A stretch of DNA of 38,323 bases from a virus, in the IMG/VR virus record IMGVR_UViG_3300044952_000744, positions 1-38,323 of that record. One strand, 5' to 3'. The position numbers were made by a program, and so were the translations under genes. Within the stretch, counting starts at the first letter, position 1, and every line of letters starts with the position of its first letter. Below, piece by piece: positions 4,044 to 38,045 of the stretch. The notes beneath the pieces were generated by a model. It was not told the origin of the DNA and made no database searches. It saw nothing but the letters and a program-made list of their open reading frames with translations.

Positions 4044-4958
4044 ATGTCAGACGAAATTGAGGTATTAGTTGAGTTACTTACGGATGTATTGGGAAGACCC
4101 AAACAACATTACGAATCTAAAGGTCAAATATCTTTTGACTGTCCTGTGTGTGCTGATGAAAAAGGGTTAGATGGGGGTGATGGTAAAGGTAACCTTGAGA
4201 TTAATTATGGAAAACATGTTTATAAATGTTGGTCTTGTGGGGAAACATTCGGAACTCAAGGACCTCTTGGTAAACTATTTGACAAACATGGAACCAAAGC
4301 ACAAAAGAAACTTTATAATTTAATCAAACCTGAGGAGTTAAAGAAAGAAGAACTTAAACGACCTAAATTAAGATTACCCGAAGGATACACCACCTTCAAG
4401 GATTCCAACGCAAGATTTATTCCACACATTGAGGCCATGAGGTATCTTACCTCAAGAGGTATTACTGAAGAAATTATTGAAAAGTATAAAATTGGATACA
4501 CCGTATCTGGTGACTTCGCCTATAGAATTATAGTACCATCATTTAATACAGAAGGGGCTCTTAACTATTTTGTTGCAAGAGCGTGGGTAGCAAACAAAAT
4601 GAAATACAAAAACCCAACAGTACCTAAAGATGAAATCATATTTAATGAAGGTCTTATTGATTGGTTTGAAGATGTTTATTTGGTTGAAGGTGCGTTTGAT
4701 GGGTTTTTCTTAAATAACTCAATTGTTATGTTGGGTAAGAAAATGAGTGCTTTGTTATTTGAAACTTTATATGAAAAGGCGTTAAGAAATATTATCATCT
4801 GTGTTGACGGTGATGCTTGGGCTGACGGATTAAAATTATACCATGAATTAAATGGTGGTAGGTTATACAATAAAATAAAGATTATTAAATTACCTGGTGA
4901 CAAAGACATCTGTGATTTAAAAGGTCAAATTGAAGAATATTATTATGAAATTAAATAA
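4044..4958 (+). CDS. DNA primase, DnaG-type (zinc finger plus TOPRIM)
   Basis: This enzyme makes RNA primers for lagging-strand synthesis. A four-cysteine zinc site is visible at Cys33, Cys36, Cys62 and Cys65 (CPVC...CWSC), as in the DNA-recognition finger of DnaG/T7-type primases. The C-terminal half holds a TOPRIM fold: VYLVEGAFDG near 211-222 (catalytic Glu), ICVDGDAWADG near 251-261 (metal-binding DGD) and GDKDICDL near 284-291. At 304 residues it is shorter than bacterial DnaG and lacks the C-terminal helicase-binding domain and any fused helicase. It would need a separate helicase, not seen in this window. It overlaps the next nuclease gene by 14 bases. Confidence 0.85.
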   Translation: MSDEIEVLVELLTDVLGRPKQHYESKGQISFDCPVCADEKGLDGGDGKGNLEINYGKHVYKCWSCGETFGTQGPLGKLFDKHGTKAQKKLYNLIKPEELKKEELKRPKLRLPEGYTTFKDSNARFIPHIEAMRYLTSRGITEEIIEKYKIGYTVSGDFAYRIIVPSFNTEGALNYFVARAWVANKMKYKNPTVPKDEIIFNEGLIDWFEDVYLVEGAFDGFFLNNSIVMLGKKMSALLFETLYEKALRNIIICVDGDAWADGLKLYHELNGGRLYNKIKIIKLPGDKDICDLKGQIEEYYYEIK

Positions 4959-14148: not shown

Positions 14149-14746
14149 TATCCAAAAATATGGAAACTTCAAACCTACGGGTAAACAAAAGAAAAAAAAA
14201 CAAATAATCCTATGTCATACATCAAGGGAGGTTAAAGAATATTTAACTTCCCTTAAACTTAGGTATAATGGGAAATTTGATAAGATACCCAATTACATTA
14301 TTACAAGAGAAGGTAAAATTTTACAACTACTCTCTGACGATTCACACACCAATTTTTTTCAAGAATCTAACATTAACAGGAATTCTATAATTATATGTTT
14401 AGAGAATTTAGGATGGTTAGAAAAGAAACCTTTAACCAACTATTATATTAACTGGAAAGGAAGTATTTATAATCAACAGGTTTACGAGAAAAAATGGAGA
14501 GATTACTTTTTTTGGCAACCCTATACAGATTTACAGATTAAATCAACTGCGGATTTGTGTAACCAATTAATTAGTGATTATAAAATAGATAAAAGATGTA
14601 TTGGTCATAATGTAAAAATTGACGGTATTTCCGAGTTTGAAGGGATTGTTACAAGAAGTAATTTTAATTCAAACTTTACTGACCTAAACCCATCATTTAA
14701 TTTTGAAACCTTTAGAAAATTTTTAGAAAATGAGCAATTTGCATAA
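14141..14746 (+). CDS. N-acetylmuramoyl-L-alanine amidase-like endolysin
   Basis: This 201-residue protein resembles the zinc amidase (Amidase_2/PGRP-like) fold. The first strand ends ILCHTSREVKEYL with His26, the usual first zinc ligand. It continues with PNYIITREGKILQLL, DSHTNFF (His69) and SIIICLENLGWLE, matching the family order of a tyrosine-type strand, a His site and an I-G-hydrophobic-E/N site. CIGHNV (His about 148) follows. The last ligand region is diverged (VTRSNFNSNFTDLNPSFNFE, with an Asp-Leu-Asn-Pro in place of the usual Asp-Pro-Gly). It would cut the bond between N-acetylmuramic acid and L-alanine in host peptidoglycan. No signal peptide is present, so release would need a holin. 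Confidence 0.65.
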   Translation: MIDIQKYGNFKPTGKQKKKKQIILCHTSREVKEYLTSLKLRYNGKFDKIPNYIITREGKILQLLSDDSHTNFFQESNINRNSIIICLENLGWLEKKPLTNYYINWKGSIYNQQVYEKKWRDYFFWQPYTDLQIKSTADLCNQLISDYKIDKRCIGHNVKIDGISEFEGIVTRSNFNSNFTDLNPSFNFETFRKFLENEQFA

Positions 14747-15296
14747 CGAAAGATACGATGAAATTAAATCTCTATTAAAGAGGTCTAAATTATTGTTTGA
14801 ACAACAAGTTAATGTTGGCGCGGATGTTGAAAGTAGAATACAACAAGATGCCGAATATGAAACAGCCGACAAAGAAGTTGAGAATGGTGAGAATCCAACT
14901 CAAAAAGATAAAACCCAAAAATACAGAATTTCTGGTGGTATACTAGCTTTACATGGTAAAGATAGAAGTGAATTAGATATTACATCTGATGAAAAAATTG
15001 CATTCCAAGAAACTATGGACGAGTTTGTTAATGAGGTTTCTGACTTAGCAGATTTTAATACATTAAATGTTTACCAAAATAATGTAGAGTGGTCAGGTAA
15101 GCTTATAGATGATGACATTGAATTTAGTTTATCAATAGGTGAGAATAGTGGAATATACATCAATGGAACCATGATTAAAGTTGATGAAGATTTTTTAACC
15201 ACATTAAATAAATTACAACAATTTTACCAAAAATTTAAATCTAAGTGGGGTAAAGTACTTGCTAATAGAAAGAAAACTAAAGAATCACCACAATAA
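14730..15296 (+). CDS. Probable virion/prohead-associated protein with tag-like N terminus
   Basis: The 188-residue protein starts MSNLHNERYDEIKSLLKRSK and then LLFEQQ, a basic helix ending in Phe-Glu with the form hydrophobic-x-Glu one residue earlier (LFE). This resembles T4 capsid-targeting sequences cut by prohead protease. The next part is charged and likely unstructured (about 30-65), followed by a mixed alpha/beta domain with a helical end. It overlaps the amidase gene by 17 bases. No family is recognised. A prohead-associated role is inferred from the N terminus and from similar starts at 17097, 22883, 29977, 35194, 36282 and 36633. Confidence 0.45.
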   Translation: MSNLHNERYDEIKSLLKRSKLLFEQQVNVGADVESRIQQDAEYETADKEVENGENPTQKDKTQKYRISGGILALHGKDRSELDITSDEKIAFQETMDEFVNEVSDLADFNTLNVYQNNVEWSGKLIDDDIEFSLSIGENSGIYINGTMIKVDEDFLTTLNKLQQFYQKFKSKWGKVLANRKKTKESPQ

Positions 15297-17096: not shown

Positions 17097-18404
17097 ATGA
17101 TGAGTAATTTTAACAAAAATATTGACAAACTTGTTTCAAGAATTCTAAACGAAGAAATTGAGAGTAAAGTTAAAGAATTATCAAAAACTATCAATGAAGG
17201 TGAATGGACTGAAATTGAAATGGGAGAAGAACTTAAAGGTGGTCAAAAAAAGATAGATGTTGCCGAACCAAAAGGTAAAATCACTGCTGCGGATTTCAAA
17301 AAATTAAGAGATGCTAAATCTCATAAGAAAGAAGTTGAAGAATTTTTCTTTGATAATAACGATATAGATGAGGATGAGTGTAATGAGTGCGGTGACGAAA
17401 TGTATGAGTCTAAGGAAGATAAAAATTGGATTCAAAAAACTAAAATGAATAAAGGGGCTTTACATAAAAAATTAGGAATACCTGAAGGTGACAAAATCCC
17501 TAACGCTAAATTACAATCGTTAAAAAAGGAATTAATGAAAAAAAGTGAGGGAGATAAAAAATTATCGGCATCTGATTCTACATTGTTGAAACAAGTTAAT
17601 TTAGCATTAACACTTAAAAGTGTTAAGGAAAGTACAAAATCTTTAAAATTAACTGAAGAAGAATTAATTGATATGATTGAGACTTTAGTGATTGAACAAA
17701 AAATTAAAGACATAGCAGAGAAAAACAATATTTCAGTTAAAGAACCTCAAGGTCTTAAAAAAACTAACAAAGTTTTAGATTTAGACAAAAAAGAAAATGA
17801 TGACTATTCTAAAGAGGTTGTTAAGAAAATGAAAGATTATATGAAGGATATGTTCATGGGTGGTGGCGAGTACAACGAAAATCCTGACGATTTCCCACAA
17901 AGTAATTACCAAATGGATAAAGACGCTAAAGTGATGAAATATAATCCATCAGAGGCGGTTGATGAGTATATTGATGCTTTTAGTTATCCTGGTATGACTA
18001 ATTTAGTTTATGACGAAATTAAACCCGACGATAAGAAAATAGATAAATACTTAAAAGGGGATTCAACAACGGGTAATGCGGTTACTGATAAAGATGGAAA
18101 GGCATTAGGTAATGTAGGTAAAAGTAAACTTGGAGATAAATTCAAAAAGAATTATGATGAGAATCTATATGGTGCTGAACAAATGAATGTTTCTTATAAA
18201 AGACAATCACAACCTGTTGATGTTGCAGGGGAAAATACGGAATCAGGTTCATTACAAAGCAAAAGAGGTAGTAAAAGTTCTACGGCTAAGGCTCAAAATA
18301 TTATGAACAAACTTGAATCTGTTGAAGATAAAAAGTTAAAAATAGTATCTGAAGAAATGAATAAGATGAAAAATCTAATTTCTTACGACAGAAAAACTCA
18401 ATAA
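17097..18404 (+). CDS. Acidic scaffold-like protein with tag-like N terminus and internal copy of the tag
   Basis: Two ATGs in tandem (17097, 17100) can start this 434/435-residue protein. The N terminus (MSNFNKNIDKLVSRILNEEI) is a basic amphipathic helix ending in Ile-Leu-Asn-Glu, the form cut by T4-type prohead protease. An internal stretch near residues 183-201 (LKLTEEELIDMIETLVIEQ) resembles the start of the 36282 protein (IRLTESDLTKLVRRVIKEQ). The rest is Lys/Asp/Glu-rich and probably largely disordered, with several further hydrophobic-x-Glu sites. These traits fit a prohead core or internal head protein. It is preceded by a late-motif variant and followed by a strong hairpin. No named family is recognised. 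Confidence 0.5.
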   Translation: MMSNFNKNIDKLVSRILNEEIESKVKELSKTINEGEWTEIEMGEELKGGQKKIDVAEPKGKITAADFKKLRDAKSHKKEVEEFFFDNNDIDEDECNECGDEMYESKEDKNWIQKTKMNKGALHKKLGIPEGDKIPNAKLQSLKKELMKKSEGDKKLSASDSTLLKQVNLALTLKSVKESTKSLKLTEEELIDMIETLVIEQKIKDIAEKNNISVKEPQGLKKTNKVLDLDKKENDDYSKEVVKKMKDYMKDMFMGGGEYNENPDDFPQSNYQMDKDAKVMKYNPSEAVDEYIDAFSYPGMTNLVYDEIKPDDKKIDKYLKGDSTTGNAVTDKDGKALGNVGKSKLGDKFKKNYDENLYGAEQMNVSYKRQSQPVDVAGENTESGSLQSKRGSKSSTAKAQNIMNKLESVEDKKLKIVSEEMNKMKNLISYDRKTQ

Positions 18405-22858: not shown

Positions 22859-22869
22859 ATATTTATTAA
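22859..22869 (+). promoter_or_regulatory. ATATTTATTAA motif, candidate late promoter element
   Basis: An exact copy of the motif, 13 bases before the ATG at 22883. Spacing is near that at 29977 and 35194 (11 bases each). Confidence 0.4.
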
Positions 22870-22882
22870 TAAATCAAAATAG

Positions 22883-24202
22883 ATGAAATTTACGTCGTTA
22901 TTAAGAACTATTATATCCGAGCAATCAAGATTTGAAGTATTATTTAATGCTTTGACAAAACCAGGAGAAAATAAAGGTGGGGTTAAAAGTAAGCCTCGAT
23001 TAAGTAAAAAAGAATTTATTGATTTAGTTAAAGCTGACCCTACAACTAAATTAAATAATGTAGATATTGATACCGCAAAATCTGAAGACCTATCTAAAGT
23101 AAAAGCTGGTAAGTATGTTCAATGGTTAATTAAAAATTATTTAACACCATCAACAGAAAGACAACCTGGTGATAACGGATACGATAGAGAAGTGGCACAA
23201 GTAAAGTCAACCTTTATGGAAGACCTTTATAAAGTTACTGATGACCTTAAAAAGTTTGACAGATTTAAAGCAAGAATTAAAGGAGAGAAAGACATCAATA
23301 AGATGACCATTGACCAATTATACGATGCTGTTAAAGATTTTGACTTAACATTGGCAACAACAACTAAGTCTGAAAGAAAACAAGCGGAAGTTCACCCTGG
23401 TGGTAAACTTGTTTTTGATGGTGATGATTGGAGAGTTATTGAAATTAATGATAAGGGCGCAGTAGGTAAAGAAGCAGCATGTTTTTATGGTGGTAATAAC
23501 CAAGAAACAAGATGGTGTACATCAGCTCCTGGCGCATCATGGTTCGATAGATATATTAGTAAGGGTCCGTTATATGTTATTTTTAATCCTAATGATACTG
23601 ATGTAAGCCCAATGACAGGTTTACCTAAGAATAGATATCAATTCCATTTCCCTGACGCTCAGTTTATGGATAAAGATGACCGTCAACAAGATTTGGTTGC
23701 GTTATTAAACGGACCAATGCAAGAATTAAAAGACTTCTTTAAACCTGAATTTGCAAAAGGTCTTACTGTGGGTGGAGAGAAATTAGTTATTGATAGTTTC
23801 AGTCACGGGGCAATTGGTAAGTTTATTGCTCTTTACGGATTAGATGATTTGATTGGTAATTTACCAGATACATTAAAAGAGTTTCAAATCCAAAATAGAG
23901 ATAATAAAGGTAATGGTATTGTAATTACAATTCCTGAAGAAATTGGAAGATTCAAAGATTTGAATATGATTTTATTGGATAATTGTGTAACATCTATACC
24001 GGATTCAATCTGTACACTACCTAAATTAAGATTCTTGGCTTTGATTAACAATCCTGAATTAAGAACAATTCCTGAATGTATTGTAAATTTACCAAACTTA
24101 TATTTCTTAAACTTAAAAGGAAGTAATAATGTTGAGGTACCTGAAGCAATCAAAGCGAAAGGAACTGACATGGGTGGAGGAATGTGGGACCTTCAAGACT
24201 AA
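22883..24202 (+). CDS. Tag-bearing protein with WCTS domain and C-terminal leucine-rich repeats
   Basis: This 439-residue protein has three parts. The N terminus (MKFTSLLRTIISEQSRFEVL) is a basic hydrophobic stretch with Ile-Ser-Glu, a tag-like prohead cleavage form. The middle domain (about 165-265) carries ACFYGGNNQETRWCTSAPG, with Cys200, Trp211 and Cys212, then a strand YVIFNPND. It corresponds to the CYYGKGTKWCTA domain in the 29977 protein. Residues about 333-430 contain leucine-rich repeats (ITIPEEIGRFKDLNMILLDN, TSIPDSICTLPKLRFLALIN, RTIPECIVNLPNLYFLNLKG). LRRs bind other proteins. A virion-carried host-interacting protein is a plausible inference. Both promoter types precede it. Confidence 0.6.
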   Translation: MKFTSLLRTIISEQSRFEVLFNALTKPGENKGGVKSKPRLSKKEFIDLVKADPTTKLNNVDIDTAKSEDLSKVKAGKYVQWLIKNYLTPSTERQPGDNGYDREVAQVKSTFMEDLYKVTDDLKKFDRFKARIKGEKDINKMTIDQLYDAVKDFDLTLATTTKSERKQAEVHPGGKLVFDGDDWRVIEINDKGAVGKEAACFYGGNNQETRWCTSAPGASWFDRYISKGPLYVIFNPNDTDVSPMTGLPKNRYQFHFPDAQFMDKDDRQQDLVALLNGPMQELKDFFKPEFAKGLTVGGEKLVIDSFSHGAIGKFIALYGLDDLIGNLPDTLKEFQIQNRDNKGNGIVITIPEEIGRFKDLNMILLDNCVTSIPDSICTLPKLRFLALINNPELRTIPECIVNLPNLYFLNLKGSNNVEVPEAIKAKGTDMGGGMWDLQD

Positions 24203-29954: not shown

Positions 29955-29965
29955 ATATTTATTAA
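29955..29965 (+). promoter_or_regulatory. ATATTTATTAA motif, candidate late promoter element
   Basis: An exact copy 11 bases before the ATG at 29977. The following bases (ATAAAAGATTA) nearly repeat those after the motif at 35172 (TAAAAGATTAA), so the shared block extends to the start codon. Confidence 0.45.
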
Positions 29966-29976
29966 ATAAAAGATTA

Positions 29977-31749
29977 ATGGATTTTTTAAAATTAATACAA
30001 GAAGGAAGAGTTGATGACTTTAAATCCAAGTATGGAAAGAAATTTTCACCTGAAAATTTGAACAAAATTATTGAGAAAGTACCACAAAAATATTTTGAGT
30101 GGGTAGGCAAGGTATCTGACAACATTAACTTTGATGAGAACTTTACCAAATTAGTAGATGCTCTTGAAAGGTTTGATAAGATTTCAACAAACCTACCAAA
30201 AACTGATATTACACAATATCAAAATGCTGATGAATTAATAAACTCAATTGTGAACTATCATAATAGGGCTCGGAGAGATGTTAAAAAAGTTGAGGGTGGT
30301 AATGTTGTTTATGATGATGGAAAGTTTTTTGTTGTTAATCCATTAACACATGACGCTTCGTGTTATTATGGTAAAGGTACCAAGTGGTGTACTGCGGCAG
30401 AATCTGATTACCAATTCAAAAGATATAATGAAGATGGAAAGTTATTCTACATTTTAGATAGAACTAAAGCAACCAGTGACCCATTGTATAAAGTTGCGTT
30501 ATTAAGAAAATTTGATGGGGATACAATTTATTATGACGCGAAAGATGAGGCAATTAAAAATGGATGGATACTCAACACAAACAAAATTAATGAAATAATA
30601 TCTTCAGTTGATTCTTATTTACAACAAGAATACGGAGAACAACTTAAAATATATTCTGATATTGCTTCTGCCAAAAAAGAAAAAGAAAGACTTGAAAGAT
30701 TAAGAGAACAACAGAGAGTTCAAGGAATGAGGGAAGACGCTCAAGAGAGAAGAGAAGATGAGGAATGGGATTTGAATGGTGATTGTCCTGATGAAGGATT
30801 AGAGGCCCATGCATTACTAAACTTTCTTGTTGAAAATTCAGATGTTAGTGTATTAACTAATGATGACAGGGCGGATATTCTAAGAATTAATAATGAGATA
30901 GAGGTACTTAAAAGAAGATATGATGATGATGAAAGAGAAGGAGAACCTGATGAAAATGTTGAAATATTAGATGAAATTGAAGCTCTTGAGGATGAATTAA
31001 CAACTTATGATGGACATATTGATGTGTACAACATTGTTCCTGTGGGACAACATTATGACTTAACTGAATTTGAAGTTATTGATGCTGATTTAGATGGTAG
31101 AAGATATGGGGTTGGTGATGATGATGATATGCAAAAAAGTTGTTATGACTACGTGGATAATTTAATTGATGATATTGGTTATACAGGATTTAACTCAGGA
31201 TTTGCTCAAGGGTATTTGGACACCGAAGCTATTGTTAAAGAAGCGGAAGATGTTTATGAAAATGATGTGAGAGATAGTCCTGAATCTTATTTTAGTGATG
31301 AGGATAGAATGTTATCTGAAGACCAAGAAGAAAAAATTGAAATCTTGAATAATAAAATTGAAAAACTTGAAAACCATATTAATGACATGGAAAGTCATAT
31401 GGATGGTGGTGAAGGAGATGAAAGTATTCAAGACAAGATTGATGAATTAAATGAACTTATTGAAGAATTTAAAGAAGAGATTGAAGAAATAGAAACCAAT
31501 CCTGACGGAGACTTCCCTGAGGATATGATTGAAGATAAGATTAATGAGTTAGTTCGTGATGTTAATTATGACCCGGAAGAATTCATGCAAAATTATGGGT
31601 TAGATTGGGAGAATTATATTGACAAAGATGATTTTATCCAAGGAGTGATAAATGCTGATGGGTATGGTGCAACTATAAGTAGTTATGATGGTAGTGCTGA
31701 TGAGATTTATGTGAAAGATGAGTTATTTTATGTAATCAGAATTGATTAA
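29977..31749 (+). CDS. Tag-bearing WCTA-domain protein with acidic coiled-coil tail
   Basis: The 590-residue protein starts MDFLKLIQEGRVDDFKSKYG, with a short tag-like Leu-Ile-Gln-Glu site. A middle domain (about 105-190) carries VVYDDGKFFVVNPLTHDAS, CYYGKGTKWCTA with Cys129, Trp137 and Cys138, and KLFYILDRTK, corresponding to the 22883 domain. From about 225 on the protein is very acidic, with coiled coils (KKEKERLERLREQQRVQG; EKIEILNNKIEKLENHIND). The C terminus holds a small globular end. I recognise the WCTA region as recurrent in aquatic phages, function unknown. Late promoter motif and tag suggest a virion-carried protein. Confidence 0.55.
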   Translation: MDFLKLIQEGRVDDFKSKYGKKFSPENLNKIIEKVPQKYFEWVGKVSDNINFDENFTKLVDALERFDKISTNLPKTDITQYQNADELINSIVNYHNRARRDVKKVEGGNVVYDDGKFFVVNPLTHDASCYYGKGTKWCTAAESDYQFKRYNEDGKLFYILDRTKATSDPLYKVALLRKFDGDTIYYDAKDEAIKNGWILNTNKINEIISSVDSYLQQEYGEQLKIYSDIASAKKEKERLERLREQQRVQGMREDAQERREDEEWDLNGDCPDEGLEAHALLNFLVENSDVSVLTNDDRADILRINNEIEVLKRRYDDDEREGEPDENVEILDEIEALEDELTTYDGHIDVYNIVPVGQHYDLTEFEVIDADLDGRRYGVGDDDDMQKSCYDYVDNLIDDIGYTGFNSGFAQGYLDTEAIVKEAEDVYENDVRDSPESYFSDEDRMLSEDQEEKIEILNNKIEKLENHINDMESHMDGGEGDESIQDKIDELNELIEEFKEEIEEIETNPDGDFPEDMIEDKINELVRDVNYDPEEFMQNYGLDWENYIDKDDFIQGVINADGYGATISSYDGSADEIYVKDELFYVIRID

Positions 31750-33229: not shown

Positions 33230-33456
33230 GTAAAAATAAAGAAATGGTTAACCACCCAGAACATTACGGTGGTCAGGATAATCCATATGAAGTTGTAAAA
33301 GTTTGCGAGGCTTGGGGGCTTGATAAAGATGCTTACATCTTCAATGTTGTTAAGTATGTTGCGAGAGCGGGTAAAAAAGACTCGGATAAAGAACTCCAAG
33401 ATTTAAAGAAAGCTTTATGGTATTTGGAGAGAAAAATTAAAAACTTAGAAAAATGA
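33226..33456 (+). CDS. DUF3310-type protein
   Basis: This 76-residue protein has the DUF3310 pattern: VNHPEHYGG at the N terminus, then YEVVKVCEAWGLDKDAYIFN, VVKYVARAGKKDSDKELQDL and KKALWYLERKI. This small family occurs in many phages and is often labelled as a nucleotide kinase, though the activity is not well established. It shares ATGA overlaps with both the gene before and the APS-kinase-like gene after, so it is probably coupled to them in nucleotide or base metabolism. Confidence 0.8.
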   Translation: MSKNKEMVNHPEHYGGQDNPYEVVKVCEAWGLDKDAYIFNVVKYVARAGKKDSDKELQDLKKALWYLERKIKNLEK

Positions 33457-33884
33457 TTTATTGGTTAACAGGACAACCTGGTGCAGGTAAGACAACATTG
33501 GCAAAATCAATTATGGAGTTAAGGTACTTCAATAATTGGTACCATATTGATGGTGATGATATTAGAGAATTATTTGATAATAAAGATTATTCAAAAGAAG
33601 GACGAATGAAGAATATACAATTAGCTCAACATTTGGCTCAATATCTTCACTCCAAAGGACAAAATGTTTTAGTATCATTAGTGTCTCCTTACAAAGGACA
33701 AAGAGATGCATTCAAAGAGAAACTTGAAAATGCAATAAAAGAAGTTTATGTTTATACTTCAGAGGTAAGAGGTAGGGAACAATTCTTTGTTCAAGACTAT
33801 GAACCACCAACAGAAAATTACATTGACATGTGCACCGACAACATCACTGTTGCCGAATGTGTTGAAAAAATATTTAAAAAATAA
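33453..33884 (+). CDS. Adenylylsulfate-kinase-like P-loop kinase
   Basis: The 143-residue protein starts MIYWLTGQPGAGKTTLAKS, a Walker A motif at 7-14. YHIDGDDIRELF is the acidic substrate-binding segment typical of APS kinases, followed by NIQLAQHLAQYLHSKGQNVL and VSLVSPYKGQRDAF, again CysC-like. APS kinase phosphorylates adenosine 5'-phosphosulfate. It is shorter than CysC (about 200 residues) and lacks a lid region of usual length, so the substrate may differ, for example a nucleoside or nucleotide. A nucleotidyltransferase follows immediately, suggesting a joint pathway. Confidence 0.75.
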   Translation: MIYWLTGQPGAGKTTLAKSIMELRYFNNWYHIDGDDIRELFDNKDYSKEGRMKNIQLAQHLAQYLHSKGQNVLVSLVSPYKGQRDAFKEKLENAIKEVYVYTSEVRGREQFFVQDYEPPTENYIDMCTDNITVAECVEKIFKK

Positions 33885-33885
33885 T

Positions 33886-34287
33886 ATGGAAAAGATACAC
33901 ATAGAAGGAGACCCAAAATTAAAAAATAACCCTGGTAAACAATTCTCAATGTTTATTGGAAGATGGCAACCATGGCACGATGGGCACAGATGGTTGATAG
34001 ACCAAAGACTTGAACAAGGTAAGAATGTTTTAATCTGTGTTAGAGACATAGAACCTAACGAACAGAACCCATTCACAGCACAAGAAGTTTATGAAAATAT
34101 CCTTATCAAGTTATATGATTTAATTATTGAGGGAAGAGTTAAGGTTATGGTAATCCCTGATGTTGAATCGGTAAATTTTGGAAGAGGAGTTGGTTACGAT
34201 ATAATAGAGCATTTACCACCTCAAGAAGTGAGTGATATCTCAGCCACCAAAATAAGAGAACAATTAAAACAAGAAGGTAAATTATAA
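33886..34287 (+). CDS. HxGH nucleotidyltransferase (cytidylyltransferase-like)
   Basis: The start is the ATG at 33886 (MEKIHIEGDPKLKNNPGKQF); the frame is open to 33787 but that would overlap the kinase gene by about 98 bases. The 133-residue enzyme has the class motif FIGRWQPWHDGHRWL with His31 and His34, then NVLICVRD, and near the C terminus the second signature VSDISATKIREQL. Members attach AMP or CMP to small phosphate substrates (for example nicotinamide mononucleotide or pantetheine phosphate). It overlaps the methyltransferase start by one base (TAATG). Substrate unknown; pairing with an APS-kinase-like enzyme is suggestive. Confidence 0.75.
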   Translation: MEKIHIEGDPKLKNNPGKQFSMFIGRWQPWHDGHRWLIDQRLEQGKNVLICVRDIEPNEQNPFTAQEVYENILIKLYDLIIEGRVKVMVIPDVESVNFGRGVGYDIIEHLPPQEVSDISATKIREQLKQEGKL

Positions 34288-35171: not shown

Positions 35172-35182
35172 ATATTTATTAA
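35172..35182 (+). promoter_or_regulatory. ATATTTATTAA motif, candidate late promoter element
   Basis: An exact copy 11 bases before the ATG at 35194, located between a strong terminator and the first gene of the tag-bearing cluster. With no other promoter-like signal in the 31-base gap, this is the best-isolated example of the motif. Confidence 0.5.
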
Positions 35183-35193
35183 TAAAAGATTAA

Positions 35194-36258
35194 ATGAGTG
35201 AAATTATAATTACTGAACACCAATTAAAATTAATTAAAGAATCCATCATTAAAGATAAAAATGGTGAGAAAACAATTAATGAGGCGTGGTATAACAATGT
35301 GATGGATATTGTCGGTATCATAGACCCAACACCAATCACCGATTCAATCAATGCTATTTCTTATTTTATACAAGGAGATACCCTTTTTGGTGTCTTAAGT
35401 TTAGTAGCTGCGGTTCCATTTTTTGTTGGTGACATTGTCGCTAAGCCTGTTATGGGAGCAATGAAAATTGGCTCCAAAGCAACAAAAGAATTAGAAGCGG
35501 CAATAAAACTATCTAAAACTAATCCTGCAAAAGCAACTGAAATGATTTCAAGTCTTGCTAAAGACCCAGGACCTGTTGGTAAATTCTTACAAAGTGCTGG
35601 TGGTACTGGTGGATGGGCAGAAAAAGTTAATAGTTTTTTAAAAGAACTTCCTGTGGGACCATTCAAAGGTATGAAGAACACTATTATGGATTATTTCACT
35701 TTATTGGGTAGAGCGGGTACTAAAAGTAAAGGTGTTAGTGGTTTGGCAAAATCATTAGAAGCCGACATGAAGTTAGGTAAAGCTAAAATTCATGATATTC
35801 AGGCACTTAAAGATTTGATGAAAGATAGTAAAGTATTTGATGTTGCGGCACTATCTAAACCTGGATTTTTGAGTCAAACATTCTTCGGAGGAATTCCAAG
35901 AGTGTTCCGAAGCCCTGAAGGTAGAAGATTAAAGATTATGATGCAGCAAACCAAATGGTGGTTAGGGTTCTTGGATTATATTGGTATTGGAAATTGGGTA
36001 GGAGCGGAAGAAGTTATTAAAAAATTAGGTAGTGAAAATGAAATGATTAAGTCAATGGAAGATTATCAGAAAACTCCCGAATCTAAAGAATATTTTAATC
36101 AATCGTTTAAAGAAGGAAACTCACCAGTAGACCCTATCAAAAATACCGCAGATGATATATCACAGAGTGTGTCAAGTGACAATGTCACAGGTGACCCATT
36201 CGCTAAATTCTTAAGAGGTTTATTCACGGGACAAGTAAATCCAATCCCTGGAATGTAA
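35194..36258 (+). CDS. Tag-bearing protein with pre-toxin-like membrane region
   Basis: The 354-residue protein starts MSEIIITEHQLKLIKESIIK, tag-like with Leu-Ile-Lys-Glu. A second INEAWY site follows at about 28-33. Residues about 35-80 (VMDIVGIIDPTPITDSINAI, SYFIQGDTLFGVLSLVAAVP and FFVGDIVAKPVMGAMKIG) resemble the pre-toxin region in polymorphic toxins and secreted effectors (DxxG-pro-D-x-I-N, then G-D-x-x-A-x-x-S, then P-x-x-G). The rest is Lys/Ala/Gly-rich helix. No toxin catalytic motif is seen. It could insert into or cross membranes at infection. First of three tag-bearing genes in one operon. Confidence 0.5.
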   Translation: MSEIIITEHQLKLIKESIIKDKNGEKTINEAWYNNVMDIVGIIDPTPITDSINAISYFIQGDTLFGVLSLVAAVPFFVGDIVAKPVMGAMKIGSKATKELEAAIKLSKTNPAKATEMISSLAKDPGPVGKFLQSAGGTGGWAEKVNSFLKELPVGPFKGMKNTIMDYFTLLGRAGTKSKGVSGLAKSLEADMKLGKAKIHDIQALKDLMKDSKVFDVAALSKPGFLSQTFFGGIPRVFRSPEGRRLKIMMQQTKWWLGFLDYIGIGNWVGAEEVIKKLGSENEMIKSMEDYQKTPESKEYFNQSFKEGNSPVDPIKNTADDISQSVSSDNVTGDPFAKFLRGLFTGQVNPIPGM

Positions 36259-36281
36259 ATTAATACAAATTAAAAAATAAA

Positions 36282-36629
36282 ATGGCAAAAAGAATTATAA
36301 GATTAACAGAATCAGATTTAACTAAATTAGTTAGAAGAGTTATTAAAGAACAAAATCAACTAAGTAGTCAAGAAGTGTTTGAATTACAAACGGCTCTTAA
36401 TGATTATTTTAAAATGAAAAAAGTTGGGGTGAATGGTAAATTATTCCAAATACCTGTGGATGAAAAATGGGGACCAACTACGGTTAACGCTCTTAAAAAA
36501 TTCCAAGAAAAAGAGAATATTAACCCTGACGGAATTCCAGGACCTGACACATATACAGCATTACATAAATTAGGATTGGACCAAGACATTATTGATAAAG
36601 CTGTTGCTTGGATAAGTAAATTATTTTAA
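36282..36629 (+). CDS. Tag-bearing peptidoglycan-binding protein
   Basis: The 115-residue protein consists of a tag, IRLTESDLTKLVRRVIKEQN at about 5-24, and a PG_binding_1 domain. That domain reads VFELQTALNDYF, GVNGKLFQIPVDEKWGPTTV, NALKKFQEKENINPDGIPGP and DTYTALHKLG, the D-G-x-x-G-P-x-T and A-x-x-x-F-Q landmarks. The tag is one of the clearest in the window and differs from a signal peptide: it is basic, amphipathic and ends in Ile-Lys-Glu. A peptidoglycan-binding protein inside a virion would fit DNA entry through the cell wall. Function of the pair is inference. Confidence 0.7.
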   Translation: MAKRIIRLTESDLTKLVRRVIKEQNQLSSQEVFELQTALNDYFKMKKVGVNGKLFQIPVDEKWGPTTVNALKKFQEKENINPDGIPGPDTYTALHKLGLDQDIIDKAVAWISKLF

Positions 36630-36632
36630 TTT

Positions 36633-38045
36633 ATGAAAAGAATTATATCAGAATCAGGGTTGAGAAATATCAACGCCTTAAAGAAAAGATATCAAAAAGC
36701 TGAGATTTATTTTCACCAAGACCTTGATGGGGTAACAACAGCGATTGCGATGAAAAAATACCTTGAAGACAACGGTATTGATGTTGTTGGTGCCCATATT
36801 ATACAATATGGTGATAAGGAGTTCTCGGTTAAAAAGAATGACGCTCAAGGGGATACAATGCCTGTTCTAGTAGATTTTGCTCATGGTAAACCAATGTTTG
36901 TGATTCACACAGACCATCACGATAAACAAGTTGGTGTTGAAAAGGGTACCTCCAAACAATTTAGAGGGGCTCGTTCAAATGTTGAGACTATTTCTCAAGT
37001 AGTTTCACCAACAGATTTATTCCCATCATCTGATATATTATTGATTAATACCGTGGATTCTGCGGATTATGCAAAACATGATATTACACCAAAAGAAGTG
37101 GTTAATTATATCTACAGAATAGATAAAGACTCTTCATTACAAAAGAATAAAATGTTATTAGGTTTAGTAATAAACAAATTACTTTTAGCTTTTAAAAACA
37201 AACCAGGATTTTTAGAAGGATTGGTTATGGATTCTGAACCTTCTTTATTGTCTATACTAAATAACATTAGAGCTTGGATGACAAAAACAAATGCCGCCAA
37301 ACCTGAAGACTTACAAAAAAATGCACAAGATTATGCAGACAAAATGGCAGACTATCCAACAGTGTCTGATAACATTATTTTTCAATACGGTGGGGGTAGT
37401 ATGTTTAAGCCTGGGTCTTACGACAGATATACACCATTCAGAAATAATCCTGAGGCGGATTTTCTTATCATGGCTTGGCCGATGGGTCTTGTTCAAGCAT
37501 CTTGTAATCCGTTTAAAAAAGAAAGAGAACTTAAAGGGGTTAATCTTGGGGAGATAGCTCAAGAAGTTTTGGTTAGATGGGAATCTCAATTAAAGGATAG
37601 GAAAATTCCTTTGTCAACTATGAAATGGGTTAGTGAAACAAGTGCTGGACCTGAAAGTGTTGGTTTTACTTTTAAAGACTTTGACGCTCTTTACGGTGGA
37701 AAATTTGTATTCATGGACGGTGGAGAAGAAGCCTTAGGAAAAATTGAAAGAATGATGGAAAAACCATTCAATGAATTATCTGAACAAGAACTTGAATTGA
37801 TGGATAAAATTGGTATTAATGCTTGGGATTTAATTCAGTCTAATTCTGGTGGTCACAAATGTATTACCAATATCTCAGGACTTAATTATTTAGGTAGAGG
37901 TAAAAGACCACCACAAGGTAAGTATAAGTATGATTCTGAGAAAGATGATTCACCATCAGTTAAGTTTACAAAAATGATTGCTACTGAATTTCAAAAAGTA
38001 TTAAAGAAAAAAATTGAGGAGTCTAAAAATTCTTCGGAGGATTAA
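36633..38045 (+). CDS. Tag-bearing DHH/DHHA1 phosphoesterase
   Basis: A 470-residue protein with the DHH superfamily motifs. AEIYFHQDLDGVTTAIAMKK supplies Asp30 and Asp32, VLVDFAHGKPM gives another Asp, and VIHTDHHDKQ holds Asp94-His95-His96. INTVDSADYAKHD adds the next metal ligand. Near the C terminus SNSGGHKCITNISG contains Gly406-Gly407-His408, the DHHA1 substrate-binding signature. Family members degrade short nucleotides, nucleoside bisphosphates or single-stranded DNA (NrnA, RecJ). The start MKRIISESGLRN is tag-like (Ile-Ser-Glu). It follows the peptidoglycan-binding gene by 3 bases. A virion-delivered nuclease or nucleotidase is the inference. Confidence 0.75.
   Translation: MKRIISESGLRNINALKKRYQKAEIYFHQDLDGVTTAIAMKKYLEDNGIDVVGAHIIQYGDKEFSVKKNDAQGDTMPVLVDFAHGKPMFVIHTDHHDKQVGVEKGTSKQFRGARSNVETISQVVSPTDLFPSSDILLINTVDSADYAKHDITPKEVVNYIYRIDKDSSLQKNKMLLGLVINKLLLAFKNKPGFLEGLVMDSEPSLLSILNNIRAWMTKTNAAKPEDLQKNAQDYADKMADYPTVSDNIIFQYGGGSMFKPGSYDRYTPFRNNPEADFLIMAWPMGLVQASCNPFKKERELKGVNLGEIAQEVLVRWESQLKDRKIPLSTMKWVSETSAGPESVGFTFKDFDALYGGKFVFMDGGEEALGKIERMMEKPFNELSEQELELMDKIGINAWDLIQSNSGGHKCITNISGLNYLGRGKRPPQGKYKYDSEKDDSPSVKFTKMIATEFQKVLKKKIEESKNSSED

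Follow-up and report, generated by a model that had tools for sequence, protein, structure and literature searches.

We analysed a 38,323-base virus fragment (IMG/VR record IMGVR_UViG_3300044952_000744, hereafter the window) in which seven proteins with different bodies begin with a short N-terminal segment ending in a site like that cut by the T4 prohead protease gp21. An original prediction, made from the DNA letters, had read these segments as one capsid-targeting system that loads diverse cargo into the virion, and the seven open reading frames (ORFs) and N termini that it named (at 14730, 17097, 22883, 29977, 35194, 36282 and 36633) were re-found at the same places. We refer to each segment as a tag and to the rest of the protein as its body; a slash marks the predicted cut, and P1, P2 and P3 are the residues before it. 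The features are as follows, with protein lengths in amino acids (aa) and classes of tag described below.

14730-14801, + strand: tag of a 188-aa protein, site LLFE/Q (Glu24), E24 in 4/4 homologues
17097-17153, + strand: tag of a 435-aa protein, site ILNE/E (Glu19), LxE in 4/4 orthologues, window-identical copy counted
22860-22868, + strand: late-type motif TATTTATTA upstream of 22883
22883-22921, + strand: tag of a 439-aa WCT-type/leucine-rich protein, site IISE/Q (Glu13), E13 in 4/4 homologues
29956-29964, + strand: late-type motif TATTTATTA upstream of 29977
29977-30003, + strand: short tag of a 590-aa WCT-type protein, site LIQE/G (Glu9), E9 in 23/23 homologues
35173-35181, + strand: late-type motif TATTTATTA upstream of the three-gene group 35194-38045
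35194-35283, + strand: tag of a 354-aa protein, IIITExQL element then site INE/A (Glu30), E30 in 53/53 homologues, P3 I/L/V
35284-36258, + strand: body of the 354-aa protein, predicted helical (low-confidence model), without a family match
36282-36350, + strand: class A tag, site VIKE/Q (Glu23), E23 in 33/33 homologues
36351-36629, + strand: body with a peptidoglycan-binding domain (PF01471, E 8e-13)
36633-36653, + strand: short tag MKRIISE, site IISE/S (Glu7), E7 in 78/78 homologues
36654-38045, + strand: probable DHH (RecJ-type) phosphoesterase body (PF01368 E 7e-4, below cut-off; Foldseek match)

Conservation of the predicted cleavage site

Homologues of the tagged proteins were drawn from the loci analysed, as complete ORFs that matched at E ≤1e-8 over ≥60% of the query, and were aligned, giving six sets that each contain one copy identical to that of the window. 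The P1 Glu is invariant in 195/195 aligned sequences of these six families (78 + 53 + 33 + 23 + 4 + 4, for 36633, 35194, 36282, 29977, 22883 and 14730), P3 is L or I in 189/195 and V in 6/195, and P2 is variable. As read from the alignments, this pattern of an invariant Glu, an L or I two residues before it and a free residue between them is the T4 gp21 rule. In the seventh family (17097), direct inspection found L-x-E in 4/4 orthologues; an apparent loss of the tag in homologues of this 435-aa protein was rejected as an artefact of start choice beside a long insertion. We also looked for homologues that keep the body and carry unrelated N termini, the outcome that the original prediction had named as refuting it, and found none among the aligned sequences.

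For the 354-aa protein at 35194, the alignment relocated the site. The site first proposed, LIKE/S, has a Glu (E16) that varies, and the conserved site is instead INE/A at E30 (53/53), Glu30 being the first fully invariant residue after Met1 and sitting in a variable stretch. The N terminus of this family is split into an IIITExQL element near the start, a variable linker and the invariant INE/A. The element is of the class B type, its Glu8 is kept in only 46/53 sequences, and it is not itself the conserved cleavage site. The T4 tag is described as carrying targeting information in its first part and cutting information in its last residues (section 2.6 of PMC9026906). Given that the 35194 family is split in the same manner, we read the tags as bipartite, with a core-binding element followed by a protease site.

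Tag families and their portability

In five long related records, the motif Glu falls at residues 5-29 in 151/839 proteins, compared with 44-71/839 for each of five later 25-residue stretches. Counts for residues 5-29 elsewhere were 13/106 in phage immuto, 7/35 in T4 pieces, 2/25 in a crAss001 piece and 4/33 in a phi14:2 piece. To assess the N termini as modules, the first 36 residues and the remainder of each protein from the five records and immuto were compared separately, with E>1 taken as unrelated. A common N terminus on unrelated remainders was found in 529 pairs (154/1512 proteins), whereas control segments gave 22 pairs for residues 37-72 (27/1280 proteins) and 11 pairs for residues 73-108 (13/1010 proteins).

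The two largest N-terminal clusters (46 and 34 proteins) and several small clusters are tags. Class A has the consensus M-x-K-K-I-I-R-L-T-E-S-D-L-x-x-I-V-K-R-V-I-x-E and a longer form (four more residues), LHxIVKESVxKILxE; class B, the cluster of 34 proteins, is MKYIITESQxxxL. Further families are ISESEKxxILxLH...LNE, MNLQENIxRIKEMMG and the short MRELIKKVLKEQ, and immuto has the family MENFDLKKFLVENKLTxNSKLLKE (four MENFDLKKFLVEN-type proteins). Counting tag clusters alone, of which class B is the least certain, the tagged proteins number 16 in record G001, 18 in G005, 19 in G006, 21 in G008, 17 in G009 and four in immuto. The single tag system of the original prediction thus stood as regards N-terminal position and portability, and gave way to several families where one had been proposed.

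A class A profile (E 0.1) matched 48/1893 N-terminal segments, 2/882 middle segments and 2/1290 C-terminal segments. A search with a DNA pattern gave at least 70 distinct tagged proteins among the matches listed, some of them incomplete and mostly from IMG/VR, and tblastn with the tag alone found no match in phage records. Some N-terminal clusters are not tags: small P-loop or nucleotide-binding-fold clusters were set aside, as were 12 G001 proteins with a fibre-like part. These twelve ORFs (G001 33535-394357) begin with a common YLKLFSAHTDYEAAKSSLILPNVSxC, differ in their rests and are probably fibre or decoration proteins. Arrays of small MKYIITESQ/ENRL-like (class B) proteins, with mostly unrelated rests, were observed at G008 20186-73534 and in the matching parts of G005 and G009.

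Common N termini could also be the product of gene duplication or of a recombination hot spot in the DNA, with no function of their own. Several class B proteins are small and adjacent, as paralogues would be, but outside the N terminus the paired proteins are unrelated (E>1). Furthermore, among 50 class A tags the third codon positions vary most (0.98 bits vs 0.58 and 0.44 bits) and the conserved residues are encoded by synonymous codons. As the third positions are the most variable, selection acts on the protein; with purifying selection indicated, we regard an origin by duplication or recombination alone as highly improbable.

The late-type motif that had been noted before the three-gene group, TATTTATTA, is indeed present there and also precedes the window gene at 577, but with 6 copies seen and 3.2 expected it is not unusually frequent in the window as a whole. 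In four related records it stands ≤60 bases upstream of 62/1030 ORFs (its reverse complement in 12), and an N-terminal site was found in 28/62 of the ORFs so preceded vs 214/968 others (p 9e-5), with no excess in control residues 66-90 (2/62 vs 112/968). The motif was picked after being seen at 35194, and its association with tagged genes is suggestive only. The window shows no enrichment of TATAAATA, the exact late motif of T4, which was rejected as a promoter here. Upstream of ORFs in G005, G006, G008 and G009, TATCTTTG(TA) shows a strand bias (35 vs 10), as does TCTTTGTA (23 vs 1). TAnnTTTG is a promoter element of Bacteroidota, which TATCTTTG resembles. Based on this upstream excess of TATCTTTG and on the relatives of the head protein described below, the host is probably a member of the Bacteroidota.

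Head maturation genes and virion links

Of the 45 window ORFs with any match, 40 match the 317-kb record G005, 36 of these at 51-88% identity, and all seven tagged genes occur there in the same order. In G005, portal protein, head maturation protease, major head protein and terminase families are adjacent; a 537-aa protein in the scaffold position has no family match and is assigned as gp22 by position alone. The N-terminal part of the head protein reads ...FLINE/ASST in G005 and ...HLINE/ASST in G006, so that its propeptide seems, from the sequence, to end in LINE/A, where the cut would fall. Protease family S77, which is gp21-type, was found over the family cut-off in 8/12 long tag-selected virus records, G005 among them. 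It was not over the cut-off in G004, G008, G009 or G012, where a profile of our own added only a weak match in G012. A full head protein match was not found in G008 or G009; small separate ORFs in these records (G008 23473-23655, G009 96426-96596) contain a stretch like residues 428-489 of the G005 major head protein.

The co-occurrence was also examined in reverse, with records selected by protease. Among all records ≥30 kb in the 80 and 50 loci returned, class A tags occur in 12 of 18 S77-selected records (27 matches, 1.06 Mb), which are relatives of one another, and in 0 of 10 crAss-like records (0.85 Mb). Named nearest relatives of the head protein include Flavobacterium phage immuto, Rhodothermus phage RM378 and Microcystis phage Mel-JY01. 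Immuto, an isolated phage, contains an annotated prohead protease, an adjoining hypothetical protein with HFIAE/A and a head protein with IVSE/A. In phages of 634 and 642 kb, the DHH homologue starts with MISKYNQFINE/E and MLRKYGQFINE/E, respectively. Proteins of these phages (L188, 1447-3363, and L189, 1522-3438) show a weak S77 match followed by a long repeat of ~14-residue units (YSEYIAENLDKN...), each of which holds an I-A-E-type site (YIAE/N-type); judged by this arrangement, they resemble a protease joined to a scaffold that is packed with sites for that protease.

Some tagged genes lie close to head genes. They are within ~1 kb of the protease in G003 and ~3 kb in G002, and a class A tagged protein with the body YMFFSNLEQIKRQ...GHDWADDHISEAK, which has a partial relative in the 642-kb phage, is encoded ~2-3 kb from the head protein gene in both G005 (98879-99346) and G006 (102905-103375). 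This placement would suit scaffold-core or minor head components that enter the prohead, are cut, serve assembly and are then mostly degraded or retained, with no cargo for the host, much as T4 core proteins are cut into fragments by gp21 (PMC9026906). Such components would not be expected to have bodies that include a lysozyme, a nucleoside 2-deoxyribosyltransferase, a peptidoglycan-binding protein and a probable DHH enzyme, nor to place similar N termini on unrelated rests, and we consider a role confined to assembly unlikely.

Distant phages provide a link to the virion. The proteins at 22883 and 29977, for which WCT domains had been proposed, both match the same protein of phage PA5oct, EST35_0205, and have the WCT-type domain in common with it. 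The record of EST35_0205 carries the label 'structural protein, ESI-MS/MS' (electrospray ionisation tandem mass spectrometry, MS), the protein starts with MKLFEVFTLYE/D, and PA5oct has S77. Two homologues in Salicola phage SCTP-2, which also has S77, start with ...TQYLFE/S. In Caulobacter phage CcrBL9 there is no S77 match, and the homologue has ~7 residues fewer before the body. Each of these three phages is one case.

The motif might also be a signal for localisation or partner binding, directing proteins to a phage compartment, a chaperone, the cell envelope or the tail, with the Glu as part of a helix and not a cleavage site. The class B element (MKYIITESQ...) is common, the incomplete conservation of Glu8 in the 35194 family indicates that not all of the tag serves as a cleavage site, and cell-wall-binding cargo would suit the envelope. 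This view does not account for L/I-x-E with a free P2, for the similar sites that the G005, G006 and immuto head proteins carry, or for the co-occurrence of the tag with S77. In addition, the charged, amphipathic make-up of the tags is, by eye, unlike a Sec signal. We therefore judge a pure localisation signal to be quite improbable.

Predicted cargo, delivery and known systems

The cargo labels of the original prediction fared unevenly. The peptidoglycan-binding body at 36282 is borne out by a PF01471 match over its cut-off, whereas no family match backed the 'pre-toxin' label given to 35194. The DHH label at 36633 agrees with a DHH-like, RecJ-type structure match (best Foldseek match RecJ-Cdc45, E 8e-6, for a query model with a mean predicted local distance difference test score, pLDDT, of 65), but PF01368 reaches 20.4 bits vs a curated cut-off of 28.1. 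The body is probably a RecJ-type DHH phosphoesterase, with the structure match serving as a lead only, as the AlphaFold models of the two cargo proteins are weak (pLDDT 65 for 36633 and 53 for 35194). We also scanned 86 of the 121 representatives of body clusters picked by loose tag patterns, a set that includes false positives and is not taken as a cargo count. These bodies rarely match Pfam, with 14 families matched in all: peptidoglycan binding in two, and phage lysozyme, SLT transglycosylase, nucleoside 2-deoxyribosyltransferase and AAA/kinase-type in one each. Tracing confirmed that the lysozyme (L099) and the deoxyribosyltransferase (L435) are truly tagged; no cluster member was traced for the SLT and AAA matches. 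Elsewhere in the window, small overlapping ORFs at 33453-34287 are P-loop kinase-like and nucleotidyltransferase-like by eye, possibly for nucleotide or cofactor salvage.

The tags are N-terminal and portable, their sites are conserved, and their lineage carries the protease and a capsid propeptide with a like site. We think it likely that the seven N termini are bipartite capsid targeting sequences (CTS) of the T4 type, an outcome that largely supports the original interpretation, with corrections. As we infer the mechanism, the N-terminal element (at its most complete, K-K-I-I-R-L-T-E-S-D-L with an amphipathic helix) would bind the growing scaffold core of the prohead, and the L/I-x-E site would stand behind this core-binding element. 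The S77 (gp21-type) prohead protease would cut after the Glu at prohead maturation, and the cut would free the body inside the head, from which it could leave with the DNA. As a portable module, the tag stands on ~16-21 proteins per long record (five records), some of them behind the late-type motif.

Several results weigh against this interpretation. Among window ORFs ≥100 aa, hydrophobic-[LI]-x-E occurs in the first 30 residues of 8/41, one of the eight being the primase at 4044 that was absent from the original list, and in control residues 66-90 of 7/41, which is not above chance. As a bare motif count is uninformative in the window, conservation among homologues carries the case, and the homologue rows are related sequences and not independent events. 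Over 101 orthologue sets, a conserved N-terminal [LI]xE was not in excess (12/56 vs 32/192, p 0.26) and the control [LI]xK reached p 0.02, in a test underpowered by having few orthologues per set. Two huge-phage pieces are without an N-terminal motif excess (2/54), and the class A profile had no match in T4, immuto or two huge phages, a negative result that gives no support to descent from the T4 tag. MS-marked proteins of PA5oct are not enriched in the generic motif (23/87 vs 60/236 other ORFs), a comparison in which 87/93 MS-marked coding sequences were recovered as ORFs ≥80 aa and the other ORFs were re-predicted from sequence, with starts that may be wrong. The CcrBL9 homologue, from a phage with no S77 match, has I-A-E at residues 18-20, by chance or otherwise, and lysozyme or peptidoglycan-binding cargo is odd for the interior of a head.

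The protease also has gaps. The prohead protease gene that the original prediction expected elsewhere in the genome is present as S77 in the collinear G005 and in seven other tagged records, but a match was found neither in the window nor in G008, a near-identical relative of 145 kb, both of which are fragments. In G004 (317 kb, 8 class A tags), two profiles found no S77 and the head protein match is only partial; this record may have interrupted genes, be incomplete or use a different protease. Another study called the prohead protease genes of gut jumbo phages fragmented or highly divergent (PMC12363816), and this might explain G004.

A wider reading is that, in an abundant and mostly uncultured T4-like branch, portable head-loading signals provide general delivery of at least ~20 proteins into the host with the DNA, so that an effector arsenal could be read from the first 30 residues; on this we are evenly divided. 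The delivered set proposed under this wider reading would comprise nucleases, cell-wall enzymes and probable defence inhibitors, mostly without known function. T4 Ip1-3 each block a type IV restriction system (PMC12373910), and by analogy with this precedent a role of DHH-type cargo against nucleotide-signal or nuclease defences would fit. If the present tags do the same work as those of T4, they mark many uncharacterised proteins of uncultured phages as virion-delivered, allow new anti-defence and takeover proteins to be found by a simple rule on sequence and would provide new signals for protein loading into phage heads.

Among known systems, the tags are closest to the CTS of T4 IPI, IPII, IPIII and Alt, which are cut by gp21. 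IPII and IPIII start with MKTYQEFIAE/A and IPI with ...TITE/A (cut points in part from PMC9026906). Both sets of tags are short, N-terminal and portable and end in L/I-x-E; both have a targeting part and a processing part, the T4 arrangement being that given in the cited section of PMC9026906; and the tag lineage has the S77 protease family and a related portal and major head protein. Unlike those of T4, the present tags differ in sequence, reach 23-30 residues, fall into several families and occur on ~16-21 proteins per long record, compared with the three internal proteins of T4 and the ten or more reported among its relatives (PMC12373910). Homology to the T4 tag MKTYQEFIAE was not found with the class A profile, so we class the tags as a CTS-like variant and not as a proven homologous member, and the resemblance of the huge-phage DHH tags KYNQFINE and KYGQFINE to the T4 tag is by eye only.

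In SPN3US/phiKZ-type giant phages, many head proteins have N-terminal propeptides that are removed by a gp21-like protease after x-x-E and have been proposed to be CTS-like (PMC5694885). In contrast to the present short tags ending in L/I-x-E, these propeptides are mostly ~80-160 residues long (one is 20) and have A-x-E or S-x-E sites. EST35_0205 of the Wroclawvirus PA5oct has a homologous WCT-type domain, is a virion protein by its MS note, has a short N terminus ending in LYE/D and occurs with S77; it differs in belonging to a distant phage of another host, and its cleavage is absent from its record. Searches of the PubMed Central literature with the tag strings and with capsid targeting terms found no description of these tags among the papers listed. 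Capsid targeting sequences, gp21 sites and CTS-like propeptides of giant phages (PMC5694885) are already known; within the literature searched, the novelty lies in the families of tags, in how many tags each genome carries and in how abundant they are among uncultured T4-like phages. Judged by their sequences, the tags are probably a much expanded variant of the capsid targeting sequences of T4.

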